64,000 nucleotides of DNA from positions 2,790,001-2,854,000 of the forward strand of contig OY540821.1 of the NCBI GenBank assembly GCA_961205875.1, in the 5' to 3' direction. Under the pieces are notes generated by a model that was not told the DNA's origin, ran no database searches, and saw nothing but the letters and a program-made list of their open reading frames with translations. Source of the stretch: Sialis fuliginosa. Taxonomy: Eukaryota; Arthropoda; Insecta; Megaloptera; Sialidae. The stretch's first letter is position 1. Every line of letters starts with the position of its first letter. The position numbers and the translations under genes are program-made. Below, one piece after another: positions 1 to 36,850 of the stretch.

Positions 1-205
1 ATAATTTGAACTATAATTTCCCCAAGTTATAAAAAATTTAAACCAAAAAGTAAAAATCCATTGCTTTTGTGCGGATACATTTCTTTTGCTCTACTGCTAA
101 AACGGCTCGTTTGCGGACATGGGTTTATTAACAAAAACCGATTGTTTTAATGTCCGTGATAACTCCTGAAAGTTTATCGGTATGTTTATGGGACACTCTG
201 TATAT
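1..205. repeat. Truncated arm of a foldback element
   Basis: This stretch matches the right arm of the complete foldback element at 1236-2035, including the 'ttgcggacatgg' block and the terminal 'gggacactctgtatat'. The left part lies outside the window or was lost. It belongs to a larger duplication in which 1-530 is repeated at about 1847-2360, carrying an exon pair with it. Confidence 0.7.
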
Positions 206-267
206 TATATAATGTATTTTAAATATTTTAATACAAACTAAAAATTTTGTCTTATTCTATTTTACAG

Positions 268-522
268 AAGCAATAAAACCTAAATGTAAGTATTATATTT
301 AACGTTATATACATAAAATAAATAAAAATAAAAGATCTTTCTACACTTAACTTTATAAAAAATATGTAAACTGCTTTTTTTAGAGGTAGGGTACAAAAAT
401 ATGAAAATTCTTATTTGTTTCATATTTCTAAGTTAAGCCATTTTAGAAGACATAAAAACTGACTCTATATTATTATTATATTTTAGTGAAGGGAGTTTTG
501 CAAAATGCTGGCCCTATTTTAC
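268..522 (+). CDS. Exon pair 1 (exons 268-285 and 487-522)
   Basis: The 18-nt exon reads AIKPK and the 36-nt exon KGVLQNAGPIL, with L and Q encoded across the junctions. Together they form one 18-residue repeat. Acceptors are 'ttttacag' and 'tattttag', donors GTAAGT. The same arrangement recurs at 2095-2352 and 2648-2811. Confidence 0.75.
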
Positions 523-3500
523 GTAAGTAAATTTTTTGCTCTTATTCTTTTTTTTATATAATTTCTTAAATCTTAACCAGACTAATATTGTGTCATAAAA
601 ATATTCAAAATTGAAAGAGTTCAATTTTCAATAATAGTTCATCAGGGAAGGGGTGGGGGAGGAAGTTTTTGATTTTATTAAACTTCACAAATGACCCCTT
701 TTTTAAACGCCTATTTTTTATGGAACCTTTTCAGATTTTTTTTAAATATACTTTTTTTCGATTTAGAACCAAGTTGTCAATTTGAAGAGGTTTCACTGTA
801 TCATTTTTAAATGTAAACAACAAACAGAAAATTGTCTTTGATTTATACATAAAAAATGCTTTAACAACCCAATAAAAAATTTCCTTATGTCCGGTATTAT
901 AAAGGACCTAACAAAATTTGCTAGCTAGCAATTACATTCAAATGGGGTATTAATTCTGTACTAGTATCTATGGATTAGTTATGGAATTTAGAGCAGTGAC
1001 ACTTCAACTAATTGTAACACAGTTGGCATCTTTGACCGTACAAAATAATTTTCATAACATCACCACTGTTTTAATACCGTTTGTATTTACCAACAACGCG
1101 TGCGCGAAACTTGTCAAAGTCATCAACAAACTCCAAAAGAACTGTCATATAAGTTTGATATCTTACAATTAGTTGAAAGTGCTTGCTAGCTAACAAATTT
1201 GTTAGGTCCTTTATGATACCGGACATTAGTCTGGTTCTGTATATACAGGGTGTCCTGTGAACATACCGACAAACTTTCAGAAATTGTAGAGGATATCAAA
1301 ACAATTGCTTTTTGTTGTAAACCCATGTCCGCAAATGAACCGTTTTAGCAATATAGCAAAAGGAAATACCTCACACAAAAATAATGAATTTTGCGTTTTG
1401 GTTGAAATTTTTTGTGTAAATCATAATTCAAAGTATGCTGATAAAAAGTTATAAAGGGCACAACCTACGAAAATCTATAAGATTTTATGTTTAATACATG
1501 ATTTTATGTTTATATTTATTTCTATCTCCTGAAGGGTCAACTTTTAGAAAAATTCGCAAAGAATAAATAGTGCTTTGAATTTGTGAATGAATACGAAGAA
1601 TTTTTTTAAAACTTTTGGTAACATTTTTTTGGTTGAGCACTTTTTTAAAATTAATAAATGTTATAAAAATTCAAAAAAATATTTTTCTATATTATCTGAC
1701 TAGTTCTAAAAACTTTTCAGCTTTTTCAAAGTTTCTAAAAATGTATCCTTCAGATGATAAACATAAACATAAAATGTGGGTGGCCTCTGGATCATAAATT
1801 ATGGATTTTTGTAGGTTTCACCCGTTACAACATTTGATCAGCATACTTTGAACTATAATTTCCCCAAGTTATAAAAAATGTAAACTAAAAAGTAAAACCC
1901 ATTACTTTTGTACGGATTCCTTGCTAAAACGGCTCGTTTGCGGACATGGTTTTATTAACAAAAACCGATTGTTTTAATGTCCGTGATAATTCCTGAAAGT
2001 TTGTCGGTAAGTTAATGGGACACTCTGTTTATTATATAATTTATTTTAAATATTTTAATACAAACAACAATTTTTGTCTTATTCTATTTTACAGAATCAG
2101 TAAAACCTAAATGTAAGTATTATATTTAACGTTATATACATAAAATGAATAAAAATTAAAGATCTTTCTACACTTAACTTTATGTTAAATATGTAAACTA
2201 CTTTTCTTAGAGGTGGGGTAAAAAAATATCAAAAATTGTATTTGTTTCATATTTCTAAGTTAAGCCATTTTAGAAGACATAATAACTGACTCCATATTAT
2301 TATTATATTTTAGTGAAGAGAGTTTTGAAGAAAGCTGCTCCGGTTTTAAAACGTAAGTACCTTTTTGCTCTTAATTCAAAAACAAGTTTCATACTTATTT
2401 TAATACCCATAATAAAAATTTATGGCCCATATAAAATATTTCTTAGTCAGAATCTGCGTGTGGAACTTATTTCAATACAATTTAATAACATGTATCTTCG
2501 CTTCTGGGTGTAAACCGCGTCAATTTGGTTGTGTTATCGACCAACGTTTCGTCACACATATTCAGGGCTTTTCTAAAAGTACACTTTTACACCCAGAAGG
2601 TTATCTCAAAACGTAATTTAATAACGTTTTCTTATTTTATTTTACAGAAAAAGTTCAACCTAAATGTAAGTATTTAATTTTAATTTATATACAGGGTGGG
2701 TGAAAAGTAAATAAATTTCTACAGCCCAAACAATCAACTTTATGAAAAAATAATTTATATTTTATTTTTTAGTGGTAGGAGTTTTGAAAAAAACTGCCCC
2801 ACTTCTACAACGTAAGTACTTTTTTTGCTCTTAATTCTTAACAAAAATAATTATTATTTTAAAATAAATTATAAATATGACTTATTTTTGTTGATAGACA
2901 ATACCGGAATAATAAACCCCTTAGCAGGCTCTGTACATTCAACGGCTCAAGGTCAACCACAATCCTTACGTAAGTATAGTGACTTACTTTTTTTTATTGG
3001 TACTTAATACAAAACGGTACTTTTAACTATAAAAATAATATATAAGTGCGTTCACGATGAAAGGAACAAATTCGTTTAAAATTCAGCTAATTATTTTGTG
3101 GAAAAACGCTCGGACCCGTCGGTTAGTATTTTTAGTTGCGGATTTTTTGACATAAGAAAATTGTATACAGGGTGTCTCAGGAAAAACATATGCAATCATC
3201 ATTGATTTTTTTAAATGGAACACCCTATATATTATACCATTTTTGAATTCTGCGATAAATTTTGAACACTTTTGTACAGCATATCATATCTCTAAAATCA
3301 GTGGTTTTCGGAATAATGACGTTTGAAAATTGACATTTTGAAATACACACAAGTCAAATAAAATGTTTAAATTGAACAAAAACACCTTGAACATTTTTTA
3401 AAAGCTAACAAAAACATCCTGGTATGCCAAAAATAAAACATCTAATATAATACAAGTTTCGAATTTTTTGAGCAAATTTTAATATCTTGTTCTTCCTCGT

Positions 3501-6500
3501 AGCTTCGTAATGTAACAAGTAAATCTTATATGTGCTGGTTTGTAAGTGCAATCCACCTCATCATTTTGTAGCAACCACATGGGAATTGATTTGAAACTAT
3601 TTTTTATTAATATACATATTTTTAATATTTTTGGTACCAAAAATGTTATTTTCCCAGAATATCCGTTCATAATTTTGCAAATTTCTATCAAATCAATTGA
3701 TGTTTTTTTTAAATTTCCTCGATGAAATATAAACCATTATAATATGTTTATTGTTTATATTATTTACTTTTCTAATAAAAAACTTATTGCACAAAAATCA
3801 TAAGATAGGTATACAAAAATATATCGGACAGAAATACTACCCTGAACTATAGTAAGCTACCAATAGAAAAAGAGATAGATATATTCCAAACTATACTGCA
3901 TCTCTCTCTCACTTTTTGAACAGATGTTACAACATTGTGTTAATACATATAATACATATGTCTATGATTATTTTTTTAAATAATTGGTTATTAATTTTAG
4001 TAAATGGTCTTCAACCAAAAAAAATGGTTGTACAACGTGAGTGTCCTTTTTTTGCTCTAAGATTTTAACATACATATATTTAGCAAGAATTACGTTGTTT
4101 AATTAATTCCATTTTATTTTAGATGCTTCAGGGTTGGCCAAACAAACAAAAACAATGCACTTCATTGGTGGTCCAGAATTATGTAAGACTTTTTTTCAAA
4201 TAATATTAATCCTGATATAGACGCGTTTATAGACGAGACTAAAAAATAATAATAAATGTAATTTTCAAAATAAAGCAAGAAAATTAAATTAGAATATAGT
4301 AAGGATCTTGGTTTCTGGGTGTAAACCGCGTCGATTTGGTCGTGTTATCGGCCAACGTTTCGTCACACATTACAGTGGACATCTTCAGGGCTCTTCTTTA
4401 GAAAATAAAATAACACGACCAAATCGACGCGGCTTACACTCAGAATCCAAGATCCATATTAAGATCACCGCGGAAGCCTCAAGACTTGTATATAGTAAAC
4501 TAGGGGCTTTGCCCCTGGGCGCTTCGCGCCCCAACCCCTTATCGCGCCACATTTGATTGATAAAATATAAATTATTTTTTTATATTAACTTTTGTCTTAT
4601 CAAATTTTCATAAAATATTTCACTGTAATTGTTTTAAATGCTGATAAGTAAATAATTCTTGAATTTGACTGTGAGTGATAATAATCATTTATCATTATTA
4701 CATTTCCAGTAATGTTACTATTTACATGTACAAATCACCCTAACCTCAGACGTACTCGGGTCTCAGCCTTCGGCTGCGACCCTCGTATACATCATAATTT
4801 ATACCTTTACCATTAATTTTGATAATACCTTTAAGAAATTACCAAAAAATCATTGTGAATATCAATTTCCATATTTTTTTGCATACAACATATTCAAAGA
4901 ATGCATTGAAGCAATTTTCAAGACCACACTCCTGACTTTGACTTATTTATTATTTTTATAAATTTATAAAGTTTTTAAATTTTGTTCAATTTCAATCAAA
5001 TCAATTTTTTTTCGTCACGATTAAAAAATAGCAATTTTAAATATTTTATAATACGATGCCACTGACAATACTAAAAGAATTAATTAAATAAATTTAAAAA
5101 ATCGCAAAAAATCAATTTTTCAACATATCTCATTGGTGTTTCCCCTTAATACTCTACCCCTGTCTTTATAATTATTTAGTATAAATTGTTTGATACATTA
5201 CATATTTGAACTTTCAAATGATTTTCAAAATTGTTTATTATACAACTCTTAAAAAATAACAATTTAAAATATTTTTTACTACGCCGCACCTGACTTAATT
5301 GTTAATAAATATTAATTTTTGGGCAAATTACATCAATCCCCAATGAATAATATAACTTTTACATTTTAATAAAATTATATAAAAAAAAAAACAAAAAATG
5401 TTCTTGTAGCCACGCTCCTGACGTAATTCTTATTAAATATAAATTATTATACTAATTACATCAATAAACTAACCAATTTTGGTTAAAATTTTCATTTATA
5501 AACAATTTAATTGAAATGTACCAATTTGACACATTTCTGTACACGCCCCTGACGTATTTCAAATAAAAAACAGCTGTTTATGACAGGCAAATATCAAGTC
5601 CACGTGGAGTGTTTAAAATTCATACGAAATGTCAATTTTTGACCAATCACAGCGACGAAATTCTAAGAATTCCAAAAACAAAAGCCTAGTGTCGAAACTG
5701 CTAAATTTCAAATTAAACGTCAGAAAGCAAAATTTTGTGCCAATTTTACATGTCGTTTCTCGGAAAAAAATACACATCACAGAAACTATTGTACTTTTGC
5801 ATAAGAATATAAACCTGTTAACTGCATAAAGGACGAATCTAAAAACAGGCAAAGTATGAAAAAAATCCAGTGAAAGGTTTAACGGGCTATAAATTGATTG
5901 TTTCCGGACAGATTTATAAATATATATACTCACGGTTTATATATAATAGAGGGATTAACAATCTCTACTAGGGATTTTGTAGGTACAAAACGTGAACTCA
6001 ATCTCCACCTAATAAATTATTTTTTAACCAACTTCAAAAAAGGAGGAGGTTCTCAATTCTATCAATATATATTTTTTATGTACATATGTTCGGGTATAAT
6101 AAATTTGCACCGATTTGGACGTTTTTTTCTTTGTAATATTTTTGTCAAGGTAGTTCCATATGTATACAGGGTGATTCAACGCTGTCGTGCCAAACTTGAA
6201 CAGTAAATTAAGAGAAATATTTTAAGCAAAAAAACATTATATCAACATGTATCCGAAAATTTTTCGTAAGGGGGCTACAGCCCTCCAAAGATTTTATTCA
6301 AAATTAGTTTTTATTTCATATCTGGAGACCCCATTGTGCTAAAGTTATGAAATTTGATACAGCGTTTAGTATTAATATGTGTTATCGATTTCCAGTATTG
6401 AGCAATTATAATTTAGATCAGAGCTGTATGGGGCCAGTGGACCCATCGATTTTTATCTAGTATTTTTTTGTTCTTTAATTTTTTCCTAAATTAGACATTT

Positions 6501-9500
6501 GAATAAGATTGTATGGCACAAAATACACAAAAATATACTTTGCTCATTTATCATAGGATGAACCGTTTACGAGAAATATGGATGCAAAAGAAAGGATGCA
6601 GAATTTTACTTAATACGGATGCTTCAAATTACAAAAAAAATTTTTATATTCTTGTTTAATGATAACAAATAAGACAAAAAAATAATAAAAATATACCTCC
6701 AAAAATTCATCCTTACCAACAAATAACCATTTTAAGTATCGCTTTCTAGTTATGTTAGTAAATTACTTGCAACATTAATAGAACTGGCTATAGGTCTAAG
6801 AGGACACGTATTAGACCTTTTTTCTTATATTTAATCAAAGAACAGGAATATAAATTTATTTTGTTTAATTTGAAGCATCCGTATTAAGTAAAATTTTGCA
6901 TGCTTTCTTTTGCATCGATATTGCTCGTAAACGGTTTATCCTATAATAAATGAGCAAAGTATATTTTTGTGTATTTTGTCTCATACAGTCTTATTCAAAT
7001 TTTTAACTTAGGGAAAAACCGAAAAACAAAAAATACTGGATAAAAATCGACGGGCCTCCTGGACCCATGCAACCCTGGTCAAAATCACTGCTGGTTGATA
7101 CTGGATATAGATAACACTTATTAATACTAAACCCTGTATCAAATTTCATAACTATGGTACAATAGGTTCTCAAGATATTAAATAAAAACTAATTTTGAGT
7201 AAAATCTTTGGAGGGCTGTAGCCCCCTCATGACAAATTTCCGTTTATATAATGTTTTTTGCTTAAAATATTTTTCTCGATGTACCGCTGAAGTTTGGAAC
7301 GACAGTGCTGAATCACTCTGTATATCAAAATCTTACTAAAAAAAAATATGAAAAGTATGCCTATAATAATTAAATTTATCAGTTTTTGAAGTCTATGCCA
7401 AATTGCCAAACCAATAAAATATTTTTTAATAAAAAGAAAAGAAAAACGACTTCAAAATCTGTTCGTATTTTTTTTATAAATTATGAGAATGTCAGGTAAG
7501 ACCTACCATAAAACTATAGAATTTATAGAAAGAGCTCTTAACAGACAAGTACATATTATTCAATTTGAATTTTATTTGCAATACGAAGCTAGAGAATTTA
7601 ATTATTTAATTAAAAATTAAATAAAAATGATATTGTAAAAATACTTATACAAAATAATTTATTTTAGTAAATGAAGTAGAAGTCGCCACTCCTCTTATAC
7701 AACGTAAGTTACCTTTTTTTGTTCATTGTACTATTTATTTTTTTATAAAAAAATATTTTATATAACTCTATAATTATTATTTATTTATTATACATTTTCT
7801 TTTGTTTTTAGATGTTTCAGGGGTACCCAAACAAGCATCGAGTGTCAATCAACAGCCTACATCATTTAGTAAGTTATTTAAAAATATACTACTAAAGGGA
7901 AAAAGCGGGTAATAAGATGAGGACATGAGGTAAAACGCTACAACTATACTATTTAAAAAATATTGTAGAACATGGAAGTTATGTATGGTTCTCCATACCG
8001 TTAATTTAATTATTAAATATGAAAATTAATATTTTGGATTAAACTTTATGCTTTAACCTACTTAAGACTGAATTTTAAATATACAGTGTGTCCCATGATA
8101 GATGTAACAAGAGGTGTAATGAACAAAAGAAAATTCGAATTTTAGAATGACATTTGAAGATCGATTCCTGCTTGATGTAAAACTAACGTATACCAAAAAT
8201 TAGTTGATTTGGTCTTCTAACTAAAGGGTATTTTATAAGCAAAGTTGTAAAAATAAGCAAGAACAAATTACCTACCCACAAAGAAAGTTTGTTTAGAATG
8301 CAATTTTGTAACTCCACACCGAATTTCAGAGTAGGTATTAAAAAAAATTAACAGTTTCAATAAATTAAGTAGATATTTTATTTTTCTTCTATAGGCTTTC
8401 GTAGCCGTTGTCCATAAGAACTAATATTTCGGGTTGTTGTCCACATTTTCGTATTTTCTTATTTGACGTTTCGATTCTCATGTCGGAGTCTTCTTCAGAA
8501 GTGTTTCTGAAACTGGATTATTTTATTGTGAAGTGAAAATTAGGATATTGAAATAACAATAAAGACATATTTGTTATTAACTATCTATATTATTACATTT
8601 TAAACAATATTAATATTTTTTTTGCTAATTTTGAAAAAAATAAAGGTGCTTTATTCTTGGTAATTTTTTCAACTTTGCTTATAAAATACCCTATAGATCA
8701 GACCTGCACTTTGCGGCCCGCGAAGACTTTGGTGAAAATTCATTTATGAATTAAAAATAATATTCCCTAGCTTATTGATTTATAATATTATGGAAGGTAC
8801 GTACCGAATGTTTTTTTTAAATTATTTCCAAAATAACGAATTTTCAGAAAAACTGTGTCAGACAAAAGTTTAATGGTTTTGAAGGGGCTAAATATTAACA
8901 TTATGGGTTTTCAGGTTCAACTTTTCTTTTTCAAATCCAAAACTATATTTTTTGTTACAGATTAGTAATTGAAAAGATAAACTAAACAACTTTTGCTTGA
9001 AACATTTTTTCTGAAAAAGTTTTTATTATAAGGAGCAAACCAAAGGATACTTTCTGAATTTTCCATAGTTTTTTACTCTGAAAACTACTAATTTTTATAA
9101 ATAATCGCAAGACGTAAAAACAGTAAAAAGTACTTAGATTTGGACAAAGATTCTCACAAAGTTTTTATTAATATCTAATTCAATTTTTTTTTGCATAAAA
9201 AAATTAACAATAAATTTTAAAAACAATTATCTGAGAATCCTTGCTTGGTTCTAAGTACTTTTTTAATTTTATGATTTTTCTTAAAAGTTTATAGTTTTCG
9301 AATAAAAAATTATAGAAAATCCAGAAATTTCTCTTTGGTTTGTCCATATCATAAAAAATTCACATTTTCAGAAAAAAAATTTCAAACAAAAGTTGTTTAT
9401 TTTATCTCTTAAATTAGGTATTTGCAACAAAAAATATAGGTTTAGATTTCGAAAAGAAAACTGAATCAGAAAACCCATCAAAGTGACCTTTCTAAAGTCA

Positions 9501-12500
9501 CCCCATAGTGTCAATATTTAGCACCCTCAAAACCATGAAACTTTTGTCCGGTATACAGAAAAATAATATAAATATTTATTTCATTTTTAAATAATTAAAT
9601 ATTATTATTTTTTAATAGCTTTCCACCCTCCCTATTTTCATTCGGCCCGCACAAGTTTTTCATAAAGTATTACGGCTCGCCTTACATTTTGAGTTGTGCA
9701 GGCCTGCTGTAGATGACCAAATCAACTAATTTTTGGTATACGCTAGTTTTGTATCAAGCAGGACTCGAGCCCCAAATGTCATTTCGAAATTCGATTTTTT
9801 TTTGTTCATTACGAGATGTAATCTTGTTACATATATTCTGGGACACACTGTATATATTTATATTTTATATATTTTTATTTTTTTTTAGACTTATTGGTAC
9901 CACCAGAAGTATATAATAAAATTCGTCAACGTAAGTTAAATTTTTAAAATATTTATATGTAGATCTAGATTACAAAATCAATGTGAACATATTTTATATA
10001 AATCACCTACATAAAGATGACTGCAGAAGCCTTTTCTTGATTTTAAACATATGTGCATTAGGGTGTCTATATTAACGAGAAATTTGTTCTTTGCAATAAG
10101 GTACTAAAGCTGCAAATTCAGCGTTTTTCTTATATGTAGAGGCAGGGCCGGATTAAGCAAGCGCGGGGCCCGTAGCAAATGTTATAAAGAGGCCCTTGGC
10201 AGTGGCGTCGGGGGGGGGGGACTCGGGGAGTCAATTGATAACTTCACCCACTCCCCCCGAAAAAAGTAAATAGGATTTTTTTTGCACATTAAGCGGGCGT
10301 CACCCCCTGTGAATTTGACATAAAAATATCAGTGGGATCTATTTTTTAAATAAATTGGATGGTCATCACCTCTATAGACTTTCAATAATAAAAAAAGTCA
10401 ATTCATTCAATTTATTAGACATTTTTCCCATTGGAAGCTTTAAATAACCAAAAAAGAGGTAAATATTTTACCATAGACATAGAGCACGGACCGCTTAAGG
10501 AATATTTTTTTGAACCCTTTTAACCCTTGGAAAAGAACGGAAAAGGATGATAAAATTTGTTGAAATTTTTATTCAAAAATTAGAAAGCACAAACTTTTAA
10601 ATGTGCTTTGGAACACGCAAATTGAATGAATTTTTTGTTTTGCTTTTTTTTAATTATCCTTTCATTTTTTTGAGGTGTGTATAATAAAACACCACTTTTA
10701 CAAACAACATTTTCTTGATTTGATTTGAGCAAATTTATAAAAATCGATTAAAAATATCAAAGATCGGAGATTCAAAAATCGATTTTTCGATTAAATCGAA
10801 TCGAGATCGGAAACCCTAAATTTTAATTATTAATTAATGTAGATTTGGACACCCCGTATCATCCATTGGACGGTAAGTGGTAAGTCCAATAAGAGATATT
10901 TTTCCGCAAAGTCGCGGGGCCCCCAGAGACGCGGGGCCCGTAGCATTTGCTACTCCTGCTACGTTGTTAATCCGGCCCTGTGTAGAGGTAAAGGTCGTAT
11001 TATGGGCACCCATTTTGTTTTTTTACAATAAAAAGTACAATAACCCTTCAATCAATCTGAAAATTGAAAGAAAGCATACTGTAACATTTGGTTAACACAT
11101 TGTGTTGTTAATTATGTCATAGGCCTACTACTTAATGAGCTAAAAAAAATTATTGAACTAAGTATTCTTCGAGAAAATTCCGAGTTGTGCTGGTAATATG
11201 GGCACCATGGTAAATACCGAAATAAATCTAATTTTATGGTACAAAACAAAGTTTTATTGTGAAAAATTACAAATAACTCATTTTATAACAAGAGTGAAAC
11301 ATAATGGGGGTCTACTTGCAAAAATCGCATACATAAACTTCTGTTTAGTGGTTGTAATATGGGCACCTTACAGTAGAGGTCCATAATACCAGCATAAAAA
11401 ATGCCCAAATTACCATCCTCGTCATATTGGAAAACAAAAGACCACAAACAATTAACTTTAACCTCAAATCGCTAAAAAATTACTGTAATACAATCTTAGT
11501 ATGTCCACAATATACAGTAATTATGTATAATGGTTTTAAAATCAGTATAAATATTTACTTTCAAAGTTTTCGTTAGAGCACAAACACAAAACTTGTAGCA
11601 ACTCTTTAACTGAGTGAGATGTCGACGCCAGCTCTCATACATACTTTTATATGAACTACTACTACAAGTTCAGGCCGTTTCCTTTAAAATACATTTGCTT
11701 CTTCTTCAGATATTAAGGGTGCCCATATTGCCCATAATACCACCTTTACCTCTACATATATTATGACTTTTTCTGGTCGATAGCAAATTATTAAAGAAAA
11801 CTATAGTTTTTTTTATTAAACGATTAAACAAAAAATTTGTTATAAATTAATAAAAAAAACCTAGACCCGTTATTTTAAAATGTCAGCTACCAGAAAGAGT
11901 CGTGAAAATTGCTATTTAAAATACACGTTAAATTTAAAGTGCATTGAGCATAGCTTAAACATCAACGCTGAATTTACGGTTACATTATTTTTTGGTCACA
12001 AAGAACAGATTGAGGGGGTTTCCCGTTAATATTTCAATAAGAACGGACACCCTAATGAGCATAACACTTTGAACATTTTTTTAAAAGCCAACAAAAATAA
12101 CCTGGTATTGCAAAAAAAAGGAAAAAAAAAGAAAACAAAGGAAAAAAAAAGAAAAAAAAAGTTCAATTTTTTTTGGCATACCAGGATATTTTTGTTGGCT
12201 TTTAAAAAAATGTTCAAGGTGTATTTTTTTAATTTAAACATTTTATTTGACTTGTGTGTATTTCAAAATGTCAATTTTCAAACGTCATTATTCCGAAAAC
12301 CACTAATTTTAGAGATATGATATGCTGTACAAAAAGTGTTCAGAATTTGTCACACAATTCAAAAATGATATAATATATAGGGTGTTCCATTTAAAAAAAT
12401 CAATGATGACAGCATATGTTTTTCTTGAGACACCCTGTATACAATTTTCTTATGTTAAAAAATCTGCAATTAAAAATACTAATCGACGGGTCCGAGCGTT

Positions 12501-15500
12501 TTTGCACAAAATAATTACCTGAATTTTAAACGAATTTGTTTCATCGTGAACGCACTTTTTACCCTGTATATTTTTTATGTTATAAACAGAACGGAACAAA
12601 CCAGCTAAGGCAGTTAATACCAGGATTTTCATAGACGATAGTAAGTATTTTTATTATTTACATCCTTAATATACATATATGAAGTTCAACGTCTCTCTGT
12701 CTGTCTGTCCGTTAGTGCGCTTATTACTCGAGAACCACTTATTCGATTTACGTGATTTCTTTTTTAATTCATAGGTACGTTATCTGGCCAGGTTATAGGC
12801 TATATTTTGTTATGTTAGGTAACATAACAAATAAGCAGTAAATCATAGTAAATCAAGTCAGAAAAAAGTTTGCCGTCGGTGCGCTGTTTTGCAATACGTT
12901 GCCTAAAATATTGTATTAAAGAACTGTGTAGAGTAAAAAGATATAAAATAAACTCCACGACACCATATGTCTAACTTTTATATTTAAGCCACAGTTACTG
13001 CTTTTATGTTACAAAGAAAATGAAAAATATTTGTGTTCTATTTACGTGGACTTTTTCCGTAAAAAGGTTTAGTTTTCCAGCTATTGCACTATGGGCCAGG
13101 AGAACCTGTTCTGTGGCCAAAAGTCTATTTTCGAATTTGAGAAAACGAATTAGACCACTGAATTCAGCATTAATTGAAGTAGTTATGATGGCAATTACAT
13201 GTTGATTAATCAATTCCTGTTCAAATGACAGGGGAGCAAAGTTGAAAAATGTATAAAAAAAGTTACTTTACTGTCGCTTGTAAAATGTAGTATTTATTGT
13301 AAAGTCATAAATTCCAAGCCGTATATTTGGATTATTTCATTCGTGGAAGTTCAAAAATAATTTTAAATGTCACATGAATGCGTTATTTTCAGTTTTACTG
13401 AAGTAAAACCACATTTTTAGTATAAAAAAACAAGATTTTTCAGCAAATCACCTGCTGCCGATTGCGAATACCGAAAGATACCGCCTTGTATTAAGTAATG
13501 AGACTCACAAATGTCTTCTCTAGGATGTGCACTTCAGCCTAGATCTGCCCCTTTTTGCCCGTTTTCATTTGCTTGACTGTGAAACTCTTCTAAACGTACA
13601 AGAATGATATGTAGGTACATATTTATTTCACATTGTATAACCGAATATAGTACCTACTACGAGTGTACAAACTTTCTCTGGACCGTGAAATTTGAGGGGT
13701 GTCTTCCTTTTATGATCTAAGCACCCATTAAGAAAATACTTTTCTAAATTCAACCCCTACGGGGGTAAAAAGGGGTGTAAAATGTTGTATGGGAAAATAT
13801 TTTTTGGTTGGATTTACTTGAAACTTAAAATGAATACTATACAAATAATGAAACTAGTATTTAAGTATTTCCCAAAATTAAACTCCTAAGGGGTGCAAGG
13901 GGGTGGAAAAGATTATATGACGAAAAAAAAATTGTTAGTATTCACTCGAATGAAACATTGCACACATATTGTACAAGACAAATAGTATTTTCGAAAATTC
14001 AACCCCTAAGAGATGGGAGGAGGGCAGGGGGGGTTATTGGTGTCTAATTTTCAAAATTTTGATATATTTATCTACATATGTACTTTTTGCGATATTAAGG
14101 TAAATTCGGAGAAAATATAATAATATTCAATTAAAATAAAAATTTCAACATTCAACCCCTAATAGCGTAAGAGGTGGACGAGGGTGGGTTTTTGATATGT
14201 TTATCTGCATATTTGCTTTAGTTATACAGGTGAATTTGGACAAAACAGTCTTCAATAAAAAAAAAAATCGACACTCGACCCCTAATGGCCGGGGTAGTCA
14301 GGGGGTGAGTTTATGCAATTTTTAGTTTCATTCATAGTGTTAGAGCGAAACTTTGTTGTGGATTGTTGTAAGGAGATTACTTGTATTTAGATTGTTATTT
14401 GTTTACACCGCGTGCTTATAAAATTAATTTTATTTAAATTGAATAACTTGTGAAATATATTGGTCGCCATATTGTATCTGCCATTTTGAATTTTTAAATT
14501 TTTATAATAAAATTGAAATCAGCGTCCCAATAAAACCTTATAAAATGAATTTTATTAACCCTCCGTTAGGCGCGCTTACTACTGTCGCGAGTTTAGGCGC
14601 GCGGCATACATGCGTAGACCATTTTCAATAGGGCCTATAATAGCTGAATTTGATTTTTATTTCAAATGAGTTGAACTATGATGTTTATTGATGTATACTT
14701 TTGTATACAACACATCATTTTTATTAAAATTTTTATATATTTTGTTGTGGAAAAATAAACAAAGTTAAATATCATTTTTAGACGTTTTATTGTCATAAAT
14801 TCTATATTAATTTAAAAAATAAACATAATATATCTAAATAAAAAAATGATTATCAAAATATGTTAATTATGATTAATATATAGAAATACAAAAAAATTGC
14901 AATGAAAATGTTTCAAAGAAAAGTATGAAAATGGCGATCAAAATTGGATATTTTTATTTAGGTAAAAATGCAGTGCGAATATATCTCATATGGTCTTTTT
15001 ACACATATTTGCCAAATTATTGCAATTTCTAGAATAAATATTGCACCGTACGACATAATCACCTAGCCTATTTGCAGGAAAGTCGAAAAAAAAATTCCGA
15101 GGGGGGTGGGGTGGAGTGATGACCTAGACCTTATCGCATTGACCAAAAAAAAGATCACTAGGTATTTTTTTTCACTTTTCGCTACTTTGGGCAGGCATGA
15201 TCATGTGTAGACTTTCAATGACTAAAACAAATATCAATTAACTTTACCCCCCCCCCCCCCTCCCAAAAAAAATTTTTTCTCCAAACACATTATAGAATAG
15301 AATATTACATCAATTTTTTAGATCCCTGAAGGGGGTGGGGAGGGGGGTAAGTACCCCCATTAGCCCCCTCCCGCCCATGGATGCCCTTGCCTATAATGGT
15401 GTGGCGTTCTACAATTATGAAAATCACGTACGCTCGGCATTGTCCTAAACTCTTTGTGGGGCTTTAAATACTCCCACGCAAAGTTTTTTTGAGTTAAACA

Positions 15501-18500
15501 TGTCTATATTTTTGAAATTAGTAAAATATAATACACGCCCATAAAATAAAACCACTATTTCTTACAAAAATGATGAAAATAAAAAATCGAAGCACTACAA
15601 AAATAGTTACACCGTTAGGCGCGTGGCATACATGCGTAGACCAGCCGTTTTTGATTCGCTATAACTCAAAACACCGGGCTAAAAAATTGCAACTAAGTAA
15701 CTAATAATATATAAGGATATGTAATCGGCAGCTACTCAAAAGGGTACGTGCTAAAATAAAGCGTGGTTTGTATTGTTACAGTTTTTATAGTAGTGGTCTA
15801 CGCATGTACGCCACGCGCCTAACGGAGGGTTAAAATCGGATAACTTTTGAAATATCTTGGTCGCCATATTGTATCCGCCATTTTAAATTTTACAATTTTT
15901 ATAAAAAAATTTTAATCAGCGTCCCAATAAAAACTTATAAAATGAATTTTATTTAAATCGGATAAATTTTGAAATATATTGGTCGCCATATTGGATCCGC
16001 CATTTTGAATTTTAAAATTTTTATAAAAAATTTGAAATGAGTGTTCCAATAGAACCTTATGAAATGAATTTTATTTAAATCGGATAACTTTTGAAATATA
16101 TTAGTCGCCATATTAGTTCCGCCATTTTGAATTTTTGAATTTTTATTAAAAATTTGAAATCAGCGTCCCAAAAAACCCTTATAAAATGAATTTTAATTAA
16201 ATCAGATAACTTCTGGACTTTTGGCCATAGAACAGGGTCTCCTGGCTCATAGTGTATTGTGATAAATTAACAACATTATCAATACTGAAGTGGACTTAAG
16301 CCACTTTCAAAATAAAGTTTTTAACTTTAAATTAATTGTGAAAATTAATGTGTTAAAAAAAATATTTCCTTTGAATATATTTAACCAAAAATTGTTTTTT
16401 ATGATAGATTACTTCTAATTATACACGTTACTATAGTCAACAAAAAAAAGGGAAAAATGGACTTAGGCTACTTTCAAAATAAACGCCTCATATAATTTGC
16501 CCTTTACAGCATTCCATTTGGTCTTTTGGTTTAGGAAATAACTTGAAATATACATACAGTAATATATTATGATGAAGTGTCGCGGGGGCAGAGGGAAGAT
16601 TCTGCGCTCGGCCGGCAGTTTTTTATTTTGTTTTCAATTATTAACTTTTAAATTTAAACAGAACAAACATTATTCGTAATTTTTGTTCTGATTCGTTTTT
16701 TTAGTTAATTTAGGTATTGGTTAGTTCTTATTACGATAATAATTAATCGTGTTTGTACTTAATTCATTTATATTTTAATCAAATACTAAACAATAATTCC
16801 GTAGTCCACGCGGGCGAAGCTAGTTAATATTATAAATGAGAAAATGTGCCTGTATGTCTGTTTGTTTGTTTGTTTATTTGTTGCCTTTTCACGGCTAAAA
16901 GTCTAAACAGATCTAATGAAATTTGGCAGAAAGATAACTTATATCTTTAGTAAGGATATAGGTTACTTTATATTCCGAAAAACTGGCTATGTGATATTTG
17001 TACGTGCGACCTGTTTTATCGACTATAATAACAGAAATCTGCATTATCTAACCTTTATCTTCTTCATGGGGGCAGTTCTTAACCTAACCTTAATTTCACG
17101 CGAACGAAGTTGCGGGTAACAGCTATTTAAATATAAATATATTTATAAAATACCTATAACTTTTTTTATTTTTAATAATAAATTTTTTATTCACAGAATT
17201 TTGGGGCACTCATAAACAACCCAGAAGAACATTTTTCGAAGAAGGTAAACATTTTTTCATTTACATAAAATATATGGTATACATTAAATCTTGAAGATTT
17301 GAAATATAATTTTCTATAATTTAGTGCCGACATTTAAATATAGCATTTCTGAAAATAAATTTGTTAAATTTTATCTGCTGTAAGGTACTGGCACCAGTCT
17401 TTTAATTAATTGTACTCAATTTAATTAGAAATATTTGTTGATATATACTAACTGTAAAACAACTTAATAGTTAATTAATGACAATTGGCGATGGGTGGAC
17501 ATTTAAACTAATTATTAGTATAATCTATTTATTAATTATTATAGGTATTATCATAGCATCTACAACATATTGATTACAATTTTACGATTTTTTATTTTAT
17601 AACTTTTGAGTCTTTGTACTTTGTAATCATTAGCAAGTGCCCATTACTGGAGATTTTTTTAAAACAAACATTTGATTTAATAAGGAGGTACTTGTTTTAT
17701 TAGTAACATGAGTTGATGAGAATTATAAAAAAGTACCCCATCAATCCCAAAAACAGTATACCTTGCTTTTAAAGTGGCCAAGACTGGTTCCAGTACCTTA
17801 TAAAAATAATACTGATTGTGAGAGTGAACATTGTACGTGTTACTATTTATAAAAAAATGACAAAGGTTAACTGATAAAAGATATGCAAAGATAAACGGGA
17901 CATAAATTATAGAAAATAACGTTCTCTATAAATTTTATTTCTATTGTGCATAAATATGTTCCACAGAGATCGTTTATGGAAAACCAACTGTTACGCAGTA
18001 CGTGATACCATCGCAACAACATATAGTGGTACCGCAACAAGTACCTAACTATGGGGGAAGTTGGGGAAAGAAACCTACGAGCAGTAAGTGTACAAACATA
18101 ATAAATAACGTATTTTAAAATAATAATTTCTATATTTTTTTCCAGTATTCGACTATTCTGCCACAGGTAAGTAAATACTTAAAATTGATGCGGCTTACAC
18201 CCAGAAGCCAAGATCTGTATCTAGATCACCGCAGAAGCCTCAAAGCTTGTATACTGGGTGTTCCAGACCACCCGTCCACTATTTTTTACGCCCAAACTAT
18301 TGAAGATAGTTTAATGATAAAAAATTTATTATATATATTGACCCTAAAGAATTTCAGGAAAATATTTTCAACCCCCTAAAACCCCTCCTTAGGGGGTAGT
18401 TTGAGGGATACACTCCCATTTCTCAGCAAAATCAAATGGAACGGTATATCCAAAAGTAGATAATTTTAAAAATCATAAAAAAGTAAGAAACTTTTGTAAA

Positions 18501-19062
18501 AAAAAATTTTCATACATTCTAGAGCACTTTTAGTAAAACCCTAAAATTCTATTGTTTAGAAAATTTGGGAACAATTTTCTAAACAATAGAATTGTTTAGA
18601 AAATTGTTCCCAAATTTTAGGGTTTTACTAAAAGTGCTCTAGTTTCGTTAAATATTATTGAAATTTTATTTTATATTTTTCTTTAAAAAGTAGAAGTAAT
18701 GATGTCTGATTATTTGATATTTGAAAAGTTTAAAAATGCAAAACTTAAATTGGGGATAATTTAAAAGTTCTAAATGGAATGATATATCAATTAGTACTTT
18801 ATCTTAATAAATATATTTAAATTAACAACTTTTGTAAAAAAAATTTTAAATTTTATTAAAAAAAATTTTAATTATATATTTTCTAAGGATTTTTAAAAGT
18901 GATTTTTAAACAGGTTCAGTATTTAATATACAGCTCGAACTCTAAATCTTTTACTGTATTATTTCAGCTGGACTTTGTATTCCCGGAACTACAAAGAGGA
19001 ACGGATGTAGTGACTGTACTTGCCTCGCCGTTGGTTGGGTTTGCAACGACAACGCCTGCTAG
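268..19062 (+). CDS. Micro-exon gene ending in a pacifastin-like domain (3' part, 17 exons)
   Basis: Seen: seventeen exons at 268-285, 487-522, 2095-2112, 2314-2352, 2648-2665, 2773-2811, 2898-2969, 4001-4036, 4123-4182, 7668-7703, 7812-7868, 9889-9930, 12590-12640, 17197-17244, 17967-18083, 18146-18166 and 18968-19062. Each has an AG acceptor and a GT donor, mostly GTAAGT. Every internal exon is a multiple of three and all introns are phase 1, so the joined frame is open for 266 residues to TAG at 19060. The protein is rich in Lys, Pro, Gln and Val, with short repeats, then a Pro/Gln/Val stretch and a C-terminal six-cysteine domain. Known: pacifastin domains are about 30-35 residue extracellular inhibitors of trypsin- and chymotrypsin-like proteases. 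Inferred: a secreted protein. The start and any signal peptide lie upstream of the window. Exons may be missing in the large introns. Function of the repeat region unknown. Confidence 0.82.
888..1225. mobile_element. Harbinger-like MITE with TTA target duplication
   Basis: A 338-bp element has imperfect terminal inverted repeats of about 45 bp starting TGTCCGGTATYATAAAGG. It is flanked by TTA at 885-887 and 1226-1228. A 3-bp TTA/TAA duplication is typical of PIF/Harbinger elements. It sits in the intron between exons 2 and 3. A short open frame inside shows no transposase features. Confidence 0.7.
1236..2035. mobile_element. Foldback element, ACAGGGTGTCC type
   Basis: The two halves are inverted copies of each other over most of their length. 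The left end is 'tatacagggtgtcctgtg' and the right end 'gggacactctg'. Blocks around 1322-1350 and 1925-1950 ('cccatgtccgcaaatg' against 'gtttgcggacatgg') pair. No coding capacity is visible. Confidence 0.75.
1847..2360 (+). repeat. Intragenic duplication of 1-530
   Basis: The segment repeats the first half kilobase of the window, covering the foldback arm, the 18-nt exon, its intron and the 36/39-nt exon, at an offset of about 1.83 kb (268 to 2095). The introns are still clearly alignable, so this exon pair arose by recent segmental duplication rather than convergence. Confidence 0.8.
2095..2352 (+). CDS. Exon pair 2 (exons 2095-2112 and 2314-2352)
   Basis: The exons encode SVKPK and KRVLKKAAPVLK, with junction codons L and Q, giving a 19-residue repeat paralogous to pair 1. 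The second exon is one codon longer than its counterpart at 487-522. It is lysine-rich. Confidence 0.78.
2500..2610. repeat. Dispersed repeat with CGTTTCG...TTCAGGG motif
   Basis: The fragment contains 'gtaaaccgcgtcaatttgg', 'caacgtttcgtcacac' and 'ttcagggctttt'. It is shared with 4308-4470. An arrangement of GTTTCG followed by CTTCAG is common in arthropod repeats related to Penelope-like elements; that assignment is tentative. Confidence 0.5.
2648..2811 (+). CDS. Exon pair 3 (exons 2648-2665 and 2773-2811)
   Basis: The exons encode KVQPK and VGVLKKTAPLLQ, with junction codons L and H, the third copy of the xxxPKLxxVLxxxAPxLxQ repeat. The intron within this pair is only 107 nt and lacks the material present in the first two copies. 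Confidence 0.78.
2898..2969 (+). CDS. Exon 7 (72 nt)
   Basis: A unique phase-1 exon encodes a 23-residue Gly/Ser/Gln-containing segment starting NTGIINPLAG. The acceptor is 'ttgatag', the donor GTAAGT at 2970. No related exon is visible elsewhere in the window. Confidence 0.72.
3044..3440. repeat. Dispersed repeat, partner of an inverted copy at 12175-12557
   Basis: This block begins 'aagtgcgttcacgatgaaa', includes 'tatacagggtgtctcagg' at about 3172, and ends near 'tggtatgcc'. A copy in reverse orientation lies at 12175-12557 in the same gene. The rest of the intron (3441-4000) shows no recognisable feature. Confidence 0.75.
4001..4182 (+). CDS. Exon pair 4 (exons 4001-4036 and 4123-4182)
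   Basis: The 36-nt exon encodes NGLQPKKMVVQ and the 60-nt exon ASGLAKQTKTMHFIGGPEL, with H across the junction. Donors are GTGAGT and GTAAGA. The pair is paralogous to 7668-7868: both first exons start TAAATG and end in CAAC, and both second exons start ATGYTTCAGGG. Confidence 0.75.
4308..4560. repeat. Dispersed repeat with adjacent GC-rich hairpins
   Basis: It includes the 'cgtttcgtcacac' motif shared with 2500-2610 and, near 4431, a 'gcggcttacac' block shared with 18183-18250. Downstream are two short perfect hairpins, ggggctttgcccc and gggcgcttcgcgccc, at about 4502-4533. A further hairpin around 'cagccttcggctg' lies at about 4765. Confidence 0.5.
4900..5560. repeat. Degenerate tandem array, CCTGACGTAATT-type motif
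   Basis: Five variants of a 'cac-ctcctgacgtaatt' block occur near 4924, 5055, 5282, 5411 and 5544, separated by roughly 130-230 bp of AT-rich sequence. They look like an old, diverged tandem array inside the intron between exons 9 and 10. Nothing coding is seen in it or in 5560-6000. Confidence 0.4.
6010..7460. repeat. Lepidopteran-type 'cgacttcaaaaaagg' repeat split by a foldback element
   Basis: The left part carries 'caacttcaaaaaaggagg' near 6030 and the right part 'cgacttcaaaatctgttcg' near 7446. In my experience this repeat is very common in Lepidoptera and supports the taxonomic guess. The foldback element at 6168-7327 interrupts it. Confidence 0.5.
6168..7327. mobile_element. Long foldback element, about 1.16 kb
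   Basis: Ends are 'tatacagggtgattcaacgc' and 'gaatcactctgtatat'. Matching inverted blocks run deep into both halves: 'gggggctacagccctccaaa' against 'ggagggctgtagccccc', and 'ggatgcttcaaatt' against 'aatttgaagcatcc'. The arms are about 530 bp with a short central spacer. No transposase is visible. Confidence 0.8.
7668..7868 (+). CDS. Exon pair 5 (exons 7668-7703 and 7812-7868)
   Basis: The exons encode NEVEVATPLIQ and VSGVPKQASSVNQQPTSF, joined by an H codon. They are diverged paralogues of exons 4001-4036 and 4123-4182. The first also resembles the ...APLLQ-H end of the upstream repeats, so all these exons may share an origin. Confidence 0.75.
8083..9856. mobile_element. Foldback element, ACAGTGTGTCCCA type, interrupted by a hAT element
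   Basis: The left end 'atacagtgtgtcccatgat' pairs with the right end 'tgggacacactgtatat'. Inner blocks also pair: 'ccaaaaattagttgatttgg' against 'ccaaatcaactaatttttgg', and 'gggtattttataagcaaagt' against 'actttgcttataaaataccc'. A hAT element splits the right arm, and a repeat fragment with 'gacgtttcgattctc' near 8465 sits in the interior. Confidence 0.8.
8699..9706. mobile_element. Non-autonomous hAT element
   Basis: Terminal repeats start CAGACCTGCAC on the left and CAGGCCTGCAC on the reverse right end. An 8-bp target duplication CTATAGAT (8691-8698) and CTGTAGAT (9707-9714), with one mismatch, flanks it. The 1,008-bp interior is itself largely palindromic. No transposase is visible. Confidence 0.8.
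9889..9930 (+). CDS. Exon 12 (42 nt)
   Basis: A phase-1 exon encodes LLVPPEVYNKIRQ, with a Q codon across the next junction. The acceptor follows a long T-rich tract and the donor is GTAAGT. It starts just 32 bp after the foldback element at 8083-9856. Confidence 0.72.
10131..11763. mobile_element. Inverted-repeat element (level 2 of the nest)
   Basis: The termini TATATGTAGAGGTAAAGG and their inverted counterpart at about 11,740-11,763 are followed by matching 'tattatgggca' blocks. The left terminus is split by a hAT element after its first 12 bases. Confidence 0.7.
10143..10980. mobile_element. hAT element with perfect 8-bp target duplication (level 3)
   Basis: Terminal repeats CAGGGCCGGATTAA / TTAATCCGGCCCTG enclose 838 bp. 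TGTAGAGG is duplicated exactly at 10135-10142 and 10981-10988. No transposase reading frame is visible, so it is a non-autonomous derivative. Confidence 0.88.
12175..12557. repeat. Inverted copy of the repeat at 3044-3440
   Basis: Reverse-complement matches include 'gagacaccctgtatac', 'cgacgggtccgagcg' and 'tttcatcgtgaacgcactt'. Just upstream (12071-12230) is a separate hairpin with a polypurine loop. The copy ends 33 bp before exon 13. Confidence 0.78.
12590..12640 (+). CDS. Exon 13 (51 nt)
   Basis: A phase-1 exon encodes RNKPAKAVNTRIFIDD, with a K codon across the following junction. The acceptor is 'ataaacag' and the donor GTAAGT. It is a basic peptide without cysteine. Confidence 0.72.
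12641..13690. other. Intron sequence, no gene seen
   Basis: This part of the intron holds a (tctg)n-rich stretch near 12,700. A block at 13,083-13,127 ('gggccaggagaacc', 'ctgtggccaaaagtc') recurs in inverse, diverged form at 16,212-16,262, which may mark the ends of a larger inverted-repeat element. Short open frames on both strands show no coding features. Confidence 0.4.
13690..14340. repeat. Degenerate tandem repeat with AACCCCTA...GGGGTG boxes
   Basis: Boxes of the type 'attcaacccctacgggggt' recur at about 13,750, 13,880, 13,999, 14,152 and 14,276, roughly every 120-150 bp, each followed by AT-rich sequence. The units are strongly diverged. Confidence 0.55.
14418..16210. repeat. 122-bp tandem repeat, four copies, split by a TTAA element
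   Basis: The 'tggtcgccatatt' block occurs at about 14,462, 15,859, 15,981 and 16,103. The last three are spaced 122 bp. Subtracting the inserted element plus one TTAA (1,275 bp) puts the first at exactly the same spacing. Units include 'cagcgtcccaataaaa' and 'ttataaaatgaattttat'. Confidence 0.85.
14559..15829. mobile_element. piggyBac-like non-autonomous element
   Basis: Terminal inverted repeats begin CCCTCCGTTAGGCGCG and extend, with a gap, through 'acatgcgtagacc'. TTAA flanks both ends (14555-14558 and 15830-15833). TTAA duplication and CCC ends are typical of piggyBac. Length is 1,271 bp. A sub-terminal copy of the end lies near 15,613. No transposase frame is visible. Confidence 0.82.
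16560..17130. repeat. Dispersed repeat with 'cgcgggcgaagctagt' and 'gcgggtaacagcta' motifs
   Basis: The piece from about 16,805 ('acgcgggcgaagctagttaa') through '(tgtt)n' and 'aaatttggcagaaagata' to 'cgaacgaagttgcgggtaac' resembles repeats frequent in Lepidoptera. Whether it is a Helitron or a SINE-like tail cannot be decided here. Nothing else is recognised from 16,270 to 16,800. Confidence 0.45.
17197..17244 (+). CDS. Exon 14 (48 nt)
   Basis: A phase-1 exon encodes FWGTHKQPRRTFFEE, with an E codon across the junction. The acceptor is 'ttcacag'; the donor GTAAAC is weaker than the others. Aromatic and arginine residues distinguish it from the upstream repeats. Confidence 0.72.
17381..17800. 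mobile_element. Small inverted-repeat element (MITE-like)
   Basis: Terminal inverted repeats TAAGGTACTGGCACCAGTCTT and their counterpart (one mismatch) enclose about 420 bp in the intron between exons 14 and 15. The target duplication is unclear. Confidence 0.6.
17967..18083 (+). CDS. Exon 15 (117 nt)
   Basis: This is the longest exon in the window. It encodes 38 full codons, from IVYGKPTVTQYV through a Gln/Val/Pro-rich middle to a Gly/Ser/Lys end (NYGGSWGKKPTS). It joins exon 14 through an E codon and exon 16 through an I codon. Low complexity suggests an extended, unfolded linker before the cysteine domain. Confidence 0.8.
18146..18166 (+). CDS. Exon 16 (21 nt)
   Basis: A micro-exon encodes FDYSAT, with I and A codons completed across the two junctions. 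The acceptor is 'tttttccag' and the donor GTAAGT. It links the linker exon to the cysteine domain. Confidence 0.75.
18183..18420. repeat. Dispersed repeat fragment in the last intron
   Basis: The start ('gcggcttacacccagaagcc') matches sequence near 4431, so the same repeat family occurs twice in this gene. It is followed by 'actgggtgttccagaccacc' and by C- and G-run hairpins near 18,370-18,400. Confidence 0.5.
18519..18642. repeat. Long, nearly perfect hairpin in the last intron
   Basis: CTAGAGCACTTTTAGTAAAA at 18519 is matched by its exact complement ending at 18642. The interior repeats 'ttgtttagaaaattgttccc' and its inverse twice. The arms are essentially identical, so the inversion is recent. 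Confidence 0.85.
18968..19062 (+). CDS. Last exon: pacifastin-like cysteine domain and stop
   Basis: The exon encodes GLC..., six cysteines spaced C-x9-C-x2-C-x-C-x6-C-x4-C, and ends with TAG directly after the last cysteine. The family pattern is about C-x(9-12)-C-N-x-C-x-C-x(2-3)-G-x(3-6)-C-T-x(3)-C. The CIPGTT start and the Gly between cysteines 4 and 5 agree with it. The usual Asn after cysteine 2 is Ser, and the usual Thr after cysteine 5 is Asn. In characterised locust inhibitors the reactive P1 residue is two positions after cysteine 5; here that residue is Asp, so ordinary trypsin or chymotrypsin inhibition is doubtful. Confidence 0.85.
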
Positions 19063-19120
19063 ATGAGGCATTATGTTTCTAATAATATTACGAATTGTTA
19101 TATTATTTTTACAATGATTA

Positions 19121-19126
19121 AATAAA
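19121..19126 (+). terminator. Polyadenylation signal AATAAA
   Basis: A canonical AATAAA lies 59 bp after the stop codon of the micro-exon gene, in an AT-rich 3' untranslated region. Cleavage is expected about 10-30 bp downstream. Confidence 0.75.
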
Positions 19127-22700: not shown

Positions 22701-22794
22701 GCGGAGCGTCGCGGATGACAACGGGGCGTCGCGGATGTTGGCTAACCGTCGTGGATGTCGGCTAAGCGTCGTGGATGACGGAGGACGATGTCCG
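19751..22794. repeat. GC-rich minisatellite, block 1
   Basis: The usual unit is 76 bp: a 36-bp connector (gcgatgtccgtgcggcttgg...) followed by two 20-bp cores of the type gggcgtcgcggatgacggcg. Units with one or three cores also occur. The + strand is very rich in G over C and in CpG. The minus strand lacks stop codons in all frames, so long but meaningless open frames appear. Confidence 0.9.
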
Positions 22795-23100
22795 TTTTAC
22801 AAATATTCAAATGAGAGTTTTATTAAACATACCTCATAAGATCGATCCTGCATGTAAAAAATAAATGTGAGAAAAATGAATTGTAGTGAAATTTTAAACT
22901 AAGCTCATTGAGTTTTATACAAAAACGCGTTGTACGCTCGTTTAGGTGTACTAGTGGGAGCGTGGATGGGTGAGTGCAGGCAACAATAGACAGACGGTGT
23001 ATTTCGTTATTATATTTATTGAGCTTATATTTATATATAATAATAAGCGTCGCGGCGGCGACGTTGATGTTCGTGCTGCTGAGATGCGTGGGCGACAGCT
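22795..23100. repeat. AT-rich cassette, copy 2
   Basis: A close match to copies 3 and 4. It is preceded by the marker 'gtggatgacggaggacgatg', which also precedes copies 3 and 4 with one change. The distance from copy 1 is 3,351 bp. Confidence 0.9.
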
Positions 23101-25864: not shown

Positions 25865-26170
25865 TTTTACAAATATTCAAATGAGAGGTATATTAAACAT
25901 ACCTCATAAGATCGATCCTGCATGTAAAAAATAAATGTGAGAAAAATGAATTGTAGTGAAATTTTAATCTAAGCTCATTGAGTTTTATGCAAAAACGCGT
26001 TGTACGCTCGTTTAGGTGTACTAGTGGGAGCGTGGATGGGTGAGTGCAGGCAACAATAGACAGACGGTGTATTTCGTTATTATATTTATTGAGCTTATAT
26101 TTATATATAATAATAAGCGTCGCGGCGGCGACGTTGATGTTCGTGCTGCTGAGATGCGTGGGCGACAGCT
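25865..26170. repeat. AT-rich cassette, copy 3
   Basis: Nearly identical to copy 4 (both carry 'gagaggtatattaaacatac'). It lies 3,070 bp after copy 2. Confidence 0.9.
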
Positions 26171-27350: not shown

Positions 27351-27657
27351 TTTTACAAATATTCAAATGAGAGGTATATTAAACATACCTCATAAGATCG
27401 ATCCTGCATGTAAAAAATAAATGTGAGAAAAATGAATTGTAGTGAAATTTTAAACTAAGCTCATTGAGTTTTATGCAAAAACGCGTTGTACGCTCGTTTA
27501 GGTGTACTAGTGGGAGCGTGGATGGGTGAGTGCAGGCAACTATAGACAGACGGTGTATTTCGTTATTATATTTATTAAGCTTATATTTATATATAATAAT
27601 AAGCGTCGCGGCGGCGACGTTGATGTTCGTGCTGCTGAGATGCGTGGGCGACAGCTG
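27351..27657. repeat. AT-rich cassette, copy 4
   Basis: The last cassette in the window. It differs from copy 3 by few bases, for example 'aactatagacagac' in place of 'aacaatagacagac'. Confidence 0.9.
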
Positions 27658-36520: not shown

Positions 36521-36850
36521 AGCTAAAGCTGGCAGCCGACTTAGCAGCGGCCGTCCAGAGTTGTATTAGCGCAAAGTACCCGCGCGCTACGGTAACTTTA
36601 TTTTCGGTTTATATCAAATACAAATAACGGAACTGAATGGAAACAACTAAATAAGATGTCTAATAGTTTGATGATTTTAATTCCTAACAATACACGAAAT
36701 AAAATATGTTATTATTAATTATATTTTAAATATTATTATTATTTAGTTTATACATTATACATATCTATAAATGTATATATATTATAATGTAAATATTTGA
36801 GATTTTTACAATCTCATTTAAAAAGTACTACAAATCAGTAACTTTAGATA
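36521..36850. other. Transition between minisatellite and satellite
   Basis: A short GC-rich unique piece ('cagccgacttagcagcgg', 'gtacccgcgcgctacgg') is followed by AT-rich sequence. No gene, RNA or known repeat is recognised. Confidence 0.4.

Follow-up and report, generated by a model that had tools for sequence, protein, structure and literature searches.

The 17 small exons noticed in this stretch of Sialis fuliginosa DNA are quite probably the 3' part of a 27-exon gene for a secreted serine protease inhibitor of the pacifastin type. This gene, here called gene B, is located on the + strand of chromosome 13 (C13) of the 392,097,322-base genome; the COX3 sequence of contig C20 (15,590 bases) matches a Sialis cluster at 97% identity, and the next cluster at 89%. 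The window is the whole 64,000-nucleotide stretch, whose position 1 corresponds to OY540821.1:2,790,001; negative coordinates denote DNA upstream of it, of which 60 kb were analyzed. The gene model, the identity of its domains, the intron phase, the exon duplications and a tandem neighbor of the same layout (gene A) can all be read from the DNA sequence. Gene B is a pacifastin gene with a new architecture and does not represent a new protein family.

Gene model and reading frame

The gene B model runs from -18601 to 19062 (+), covers 37.7 kb and encodes 489 aa. All 26 introns are in phase 1, with a single open frame throughout. Its internal exons (25/25 divisible by three) measure 18-147 nt with a median of 39, and 11 of the 25 have 36 nt or fewer. 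The original prediction covered 17 exons, from 268-285 to 18968-19062, and we found all of them in place. The first 16 are 18-117 nt long, 16/16 are divisible by three, and their borders are AG/GT throughout; every junction is in phase 1, and the joined frame is open up to the TAG at 19060-19062. Some exons of the gene have weak donors (GTAAAC, GTAAAT, GTAAAA).

The search for a first exon and a signal peptide upstream, as had been proposed, revealed a signal-peptide exon and nine more exons. These ten exons, the first of which starts at -18601, precede the window and carry the frame on into its exons. Exon 1 (-18601 to -18538, +; 64 nt, MKTFALVLVLFAISVRA) is hydrophobic and has a phase-1 donor. 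Its signal peptide, judged from hydropathy and not by a trained predictor, makes secretion of the protein probable, as suggested earlier. The motif TATAAAT begins 59 nt ahead of the ATG. Past the stop, at a distance of 55-64 nt, overlapping polyadenylation-signal-like motifs ATTAAA/AATAAA occupy 19117-19126 (+), with AATAAA at 19121-19126. The gene is predicted to be transcribed and may give rise to splicing isoforms.

Pacifastin domains and neighboring genes

The proposed check of the spliced protein against the Pfam pacifastin profile was positive: the whole gene B protein matched Pacifastin_I (PF05375) at 68.8 bits, with E 3.2e-19 and a cut-off of 27.9. At a loose limit of E 10, three Pacifastin_I stretches were found. 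The exons of domain 1 (-12932 to -12825, +) and domain 2 (-10219 to -10073, +) matched at 39 and 42.3 bits in the genome family search. Both domains were also compared with the PDB sequences, where 16 matches had E<=1 (best 1.2e-7) and were named serine protease inhibitors or pacifastins; the solved matches are locust-type inhibitors.

By position, domain 1 has Leu and domain 2 has Arg as its P1 residue. From these residues, domain 1 is predicted to be probably of the chymotrypsin type and domain 2 probably of the trypsin type. In the available text on the cricket spermatophylax inhibitor SPX4, which has two domains with this succession of P1 residues, Leu is read as chymotrypsin inhibition and Arg as trypsin inhibition (PMC4595131). 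The same rule of specificity from the P1 residue is found in the accessible part of PMC13388995.

Exon 27 (18968-19062, +) encodes a degenerate third domain with a 6-residue Cys4-Cys5 loop and ends in the TAG. Alone it reached 18.2 bits, below the Pfam cut-off of 27.9, yet its best solved relatives (1wo9, E 0.0016) and its best fold matches are pacifastin inhibitors, as expected from the pacifastin-like C-terminal domain first described. With Asp at P1 and a shortened loop, it has probably lost its inhibitory function.

The idea of a new family did not survive, because gene B has two canonical pacifastin domains upstream and the chromosome is rich in them: the family search of the genome gave 30 matches, 27 of them on C13. 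The upstream tandem neighbor, gene A (-51395 to -24891, +), has 16 exons, 290 residues, its own hydrophobic first exon and its own stop. Its introns are in phase 1 in 15/15 cases, and its two weak pacifastin domains gave 20.5 bits for the whole protein, below the cut-off of 27.9. On the sequence, its layout is the same as that of gene B. The first intron of gene A (10,170 nt) may contain further exons. Another pacifastin gene is located upstream of gene A (C13:2710137-2727617, +), with phase-1 domain exons about 1-5 kb apart. At C13:8349739-8352927 there is a short-loop pacifastin subtype of five domains, in which six residues separate Cys4 from Cys5, four of the domains having AGW before Cys5; it is the nearest kin of the last domain of gene B.

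A large array at C13:5.649-5.702 Mb (5649099-5701670, -) holds 135 matches to six-cysteine pacifastin domains on one strand. Phase 1 was the best border on both sides in 106 of the 135; in 12 a side showed a different phase, and for 17 no border was found on at least one side. Phase 1 is therefore ordinary for the pacifastin exons of this region, and what is unusual in gene B is its series of exons of 18-60 nt. Extracellular modules of class 1-1 are expected to have symmetrical phase-1 exons (PMC8001218, whose available text does not mention pacifastin). In the array, a phase-1 chain joined 103 domains in 102 exons (5,687,412-5,648,981; median intron 73 nt), and two unconfirmed signal-peptide candidates occur just upstream of it, near 5,688,300. 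With exons limited to 51 nt or fewer, chains reached 21 in gene B, 14 in gene A and 15 in the large array, where many of the short candidates belong to domain exons. Long micro-exon chains were found only in genes A and B among the regions tested.

Composition and duplication of the micro-exon tail

The predicted order of parts is signal peptide, domain 1, domain 2, acidic stretch, basic repeat, exons 17-26 and third domain. Exons 5-7 encode a strongly acidic stretch of 62 residues (charge about -32), and exons 9-16 a basic stretch of 74 residues (charge about +15.5). The basic stretch consists of four copies of an 18-19 residue repeat, each made of an 18-nt (u) and a 36/39-nt (v) exon. The v-type exon 10 (-721 to -686, +) is identical to exon 12 (v-type, 36 nt, 487-522, +; KGVLQNAGPIL), which also has the v pattern. 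The remaining exons of the stretch that fall within the window were recognized by their splice borders and frame together with the u or v pattern: exon 11 (u-type, 18 nt, 268-285, +; AIKPK plus split codons), exon 13 (u-type, 18 nt, 2095-2112, +; SVKPK), exon 14 (v-type, 39 nt, 2314-2352, +; KRVLKKAAPVLK), exon 15 (u-type, 18 nt, 2648-2665, +; KVQPK), and exon 16 (v-type, 39 nt, 2773-2811, +; VGVLKKTAPLLQ).

Exons 17-26, also on the + strand, range from 21 to 117 nt. Splice borders and frame define exons 17 (72 nt, 2898-2969), 22 (42 nt, 9889-9930), 23 (51 nt, 12590-12640), 24 (48 nt, 17197-17244, donor GTAAAC), 25 (117 nt, 17967-18083), and 26 (21 nt, 18146-18166). The others show likenesses to one another or to the repeat: exons 19 (60 nt, 4123-4182) and 21 (57 nt, 7812-7868) are similar, the intron after exon 18 (36 nt, 4001-4036) starts like those after the v-type exons 12, 14, and 16, and the intron after exon 20 (36 nt, 7668-7703) starts like the one after exon 18 only. 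Taken together, the introns that follow exons 10, 12, 14, 16, and 18 had similar starts; these similarities were assessed with 300 shuffles per pair, uncorrected for the many pairs compared, and some exon pairs, such as 5/24, look like an effect of composition.

IUPAC patterns for the u and v exons were searched genome-wide (392 Mb), with 1 and 2 mismatches allowed, respectively. Each pattern had four matches, all within gene B, and its reversed control had 0, so the u and v exons do not belong to a dispersed repeat. The segment with exons 11-12 (-341 to 547) and the segment with exons 13-14 (1490-2377, +) are duplicates with 86% identity over 915 columns. In addition, 150 bp around exon 12 (468-617, +) are 98% identical to -739 to -592 around exon 10, which is the result of very recent duplication or gene conversion. 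The tail would thus have grown at least partly by duplication of exon pairs. With all introns in phase 1, the reading frame survives the duplication, loss or skipping of any internal exon.

Within the 86% duplication, exons were less conserved than introns (44/54 vs 699/765 identical columns, Fisher p 0.026), where the intron figure leaves out gap columns and 44 columns (36 identical) beside exon 12. This comparison of exons with introns gave no sign of purifying selection in the duplication, and the lower conservation of the exons may be confounded by the conversion tract. A protein search of a database holding uniref and nr, limited by word and length, gave no relative and no trematode MEG match, and the micro-exon peptides of gene A had no match to gene B at E<=1. 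The lack of matches in both searches suggests that the gene may be fast-evolving.

As a working mechanism, the N-terminal domains 1 and 2 would remain joined as a double-headed inhibitor, which would use the canonical loop to block extracellular proteases. The charged tail may anchor or tune this inhibitor.

Several other features were noted in and around the gene. The intron before exon 27 (about 18246-18886) carries a 600-bp repeat that accounts for most of the 121 genome matches listed (itself included, long and short), and its copies often occur in head-to-head pairs. About 700 bp past gene B, a G+C-rich minisatellite with interruptions starts (19755-36550; units of 20, 56, 76, and 96 bp), where G+C climbs from 0.35 to 0.67. 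Long arrays of a 175-bp satellite (about 96% matches) follow at 36956-42262, 48954-62961, and 63063-64000, the last block apparently reversed. Three adjoining long open frames lie between satellite arrays at 43346-47818 (-); from their zinc-knuckle, reverse transcriptase and integrase-like motifs, we take them to resemble a Ty3/gypsy-type retroelement. Elsewhere in the assembly, the first 2 kb of contig C19 (25,566 bases) look bacterial by eye (sensor-kinase-like), and this contig is a possible symbiont or contaminant.

Alternative readings and comparison with known systems

To measure the frame against chance, a chain was defined as a series of consecutive exons that have strong splice sites and phase-1 borders and contain no stop, not even in the codons at their junctions. 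The splice-site weights were generic ones of our own, and the thresholds were picked after the exons had first been seen, so the outcome is a strong indication and not a clean test. The longest phase-1 chain on the + strand of 1-19070 had 17 exons. On the - strand it had 2, and the best chain in any phase had 5 (phase 0); 60 dinucleotide shuffles gave a mean of 1.95 and a maximum of 5. For the whole 37.7-kb region of gene B, the phase-1 chain was 21 on the + strand and 2 on the - strand, with a maximum of 7 in 60 shuffles. The + strand phases 0 and 2 reached 12-13 and 8-15 in these controls, below phase 1, and in other DNA of the same genome (four stretches including window 42-49 kb, both strands) the phase-1 chains had 2-5 exons. 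A+T-rich sequence readily yields short exons, and weak single candidates are numerous here, so that splice-like sites could in principle have lined up by chance. The chain control refutes this within its own limits, and domain homology is present at both ends of the gene; we give chance alignment practically no weight, in agreement with the earlier judgment that an accidental open frame is very unlikely.

Two further readings accept the exons and interpret them differently. Exons 1-3 or 1-4 could make up a short pacifastin gene of the ordinary kind, in which case the micro-exons and the C-terminal domain would belong to another secreted gene with a first exon that was missed. The early introns are long (5605, 2605, 833, and 5154 nt for introns 1-4), ordinary two-domain pacifastins are known, and exons 1-3 are tied to the later exons by frame and order only. 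However, frame and phase are continuous across all 26 introns, and in the upstream DNA from -18601 to 0 the list of signal-peptide-like exons has only two others, with weaker donors (4.4 and 3.7), which makes a pair of genes unlikely. More doubtful still is a decaying array, in which an old pacifastin gene no longer splices in its micro-exons and the open frame is a relic. Exons 11-14 are no better conserved than their own introns, repeats are many in the introns, and the C-terminal domain is degenerate. Against decay, 25/25 internal exons have stayed open and kept a length that is a multiple of three, and the recent duplicates retain their splice sites and frame despite a 3-nt difference in length in exon 14. 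The preferred reading remains a single gene for a secreted pacifastin-type inhibitor.

The original prediction also pointed to schistosome MEG genes and aphid bicycle genes. Nearly all internal exons of bicycle genes begin at codon position 2, that is, their introns are in phase 1 (PMC9168663, available text). Gene B likewise has many tiny internal exons starting at codon position 2, plus a signal peptide. With the rounded coefficients given in the accessible part of PMC9168663, the published bicycle classifier gave 0.721 for gene B, on the line of the 0.72 cut-off, and 0.440 for gene A. Gene B also has the MEG type of structure (exons of 81 nt or fewer, multiples of three, signal peptide): 21 of its 25 internal exons are in this size class (longest 75), with 840 of the 1470 coding nt. 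Beyond structure the likeness fails. Gene B has no C-Y-C-like motif, nor any Cys outside its three pacifastin domains, and gene A has one match to the motif, inside a pacifastin domain. Pacifastin homology accounts for both ends of gene B, pacifastin exons of this genome normally have phase-1 borders, and the host belongs to Megaloptera, outside the aphids, phylloxerids, coccids and trematodes. The structural half of the comparison therefore stands and membership of either family is unsupported; that gene B belongs to or derives from such effector genes is very improbable. Gene B is a micro-exon gene in structure and a pacifastin by descent. It is also a warning that a classifier based on structure only can place a pacifastin gene at its threshold.

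We tentatively consider a wider reading, possible but doubtful, in which genes A and B have been caught in transition from modular inhibitor genes of class 1-1 to micro-exon genes of the MEG/bicycle kind: their inhibitor domains would still be readable, and a fast-changing, combinatorially spliced tail would be growing through conversion and the duplication of exon pairs. On this reading, secreted genes that once carried domains, since eroded, may be the ancestors of phase-1 micro-exon effector families elsewhere. Proteins of such families diverge so quickly that the origin of the families is difficult to trace, as the available text on bicycle genes states (PMC9168663). Gene B combines a micro-exon structure with recognizable inhibitor domains at both ends, a neighbor of the same layout and duplications that can be compared base by base, so an origin of micro-exons in modular genes of class 1-1 becomes directly testable. 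Sialis fuliginosa suits such tests: its genome is assembled to chromosome level, poly-A RNA-seq exists (ERR11496096, listed in PMC11549539), and its congener Sialis lutaria has a 462 Mb assembly (PMC11462116).

Among known systems, the insect pacifastin precursors (PF05375; SGCI/SGTI, PMP-C, SPX4) share with gene B a signal peptide in exon 1, domains encoded by a single exon, and domains in tandem; cricket SPX4 shares the Leu and Arg at P1 as well (PMC4595131, available text). The insect pacifastin genes in the accessible part of Breugelmans 2009 have few exons (eight in one N. vitripennis gene), and no tail of 20-odd micro-exons is described there. A many-exon pacifastin gene comparable to gene B is Trichoplax tapp-1, with 88 exons and 42 domains, the most complex pacifastin gene studied by 2009. 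One domain of tapp-1 corresponds to two exons, whereas most of the extra exons of gene B carry no domain (PMC2689174, as far as its text is available).

Aphid bicycle genes have many tiny exons and phase-1 introns in common with gene B (PMC9168663, same text). They encode CYC motifs and occur in aphids, phylloxerids and coccids, whereas gene B has pacifastin domains instead. Schistosome MEG genes share the signal peptide, the short exons, mostly multiples of three, and the long introns; they differ in being trematode genes with exons mostly of 15 bp, and the available part of the source does not mention a pacifastin domain (PMC10526429). The duplication of symmetrical phase-1 exons without loss of frame is what class 1-1 exon shuffling shares with gene B. 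In the accessible text on shuffling, however, the modules are folded domains, whereas the duplicated exons of gene B are pieces of 6-20 residues (PMC8001218).
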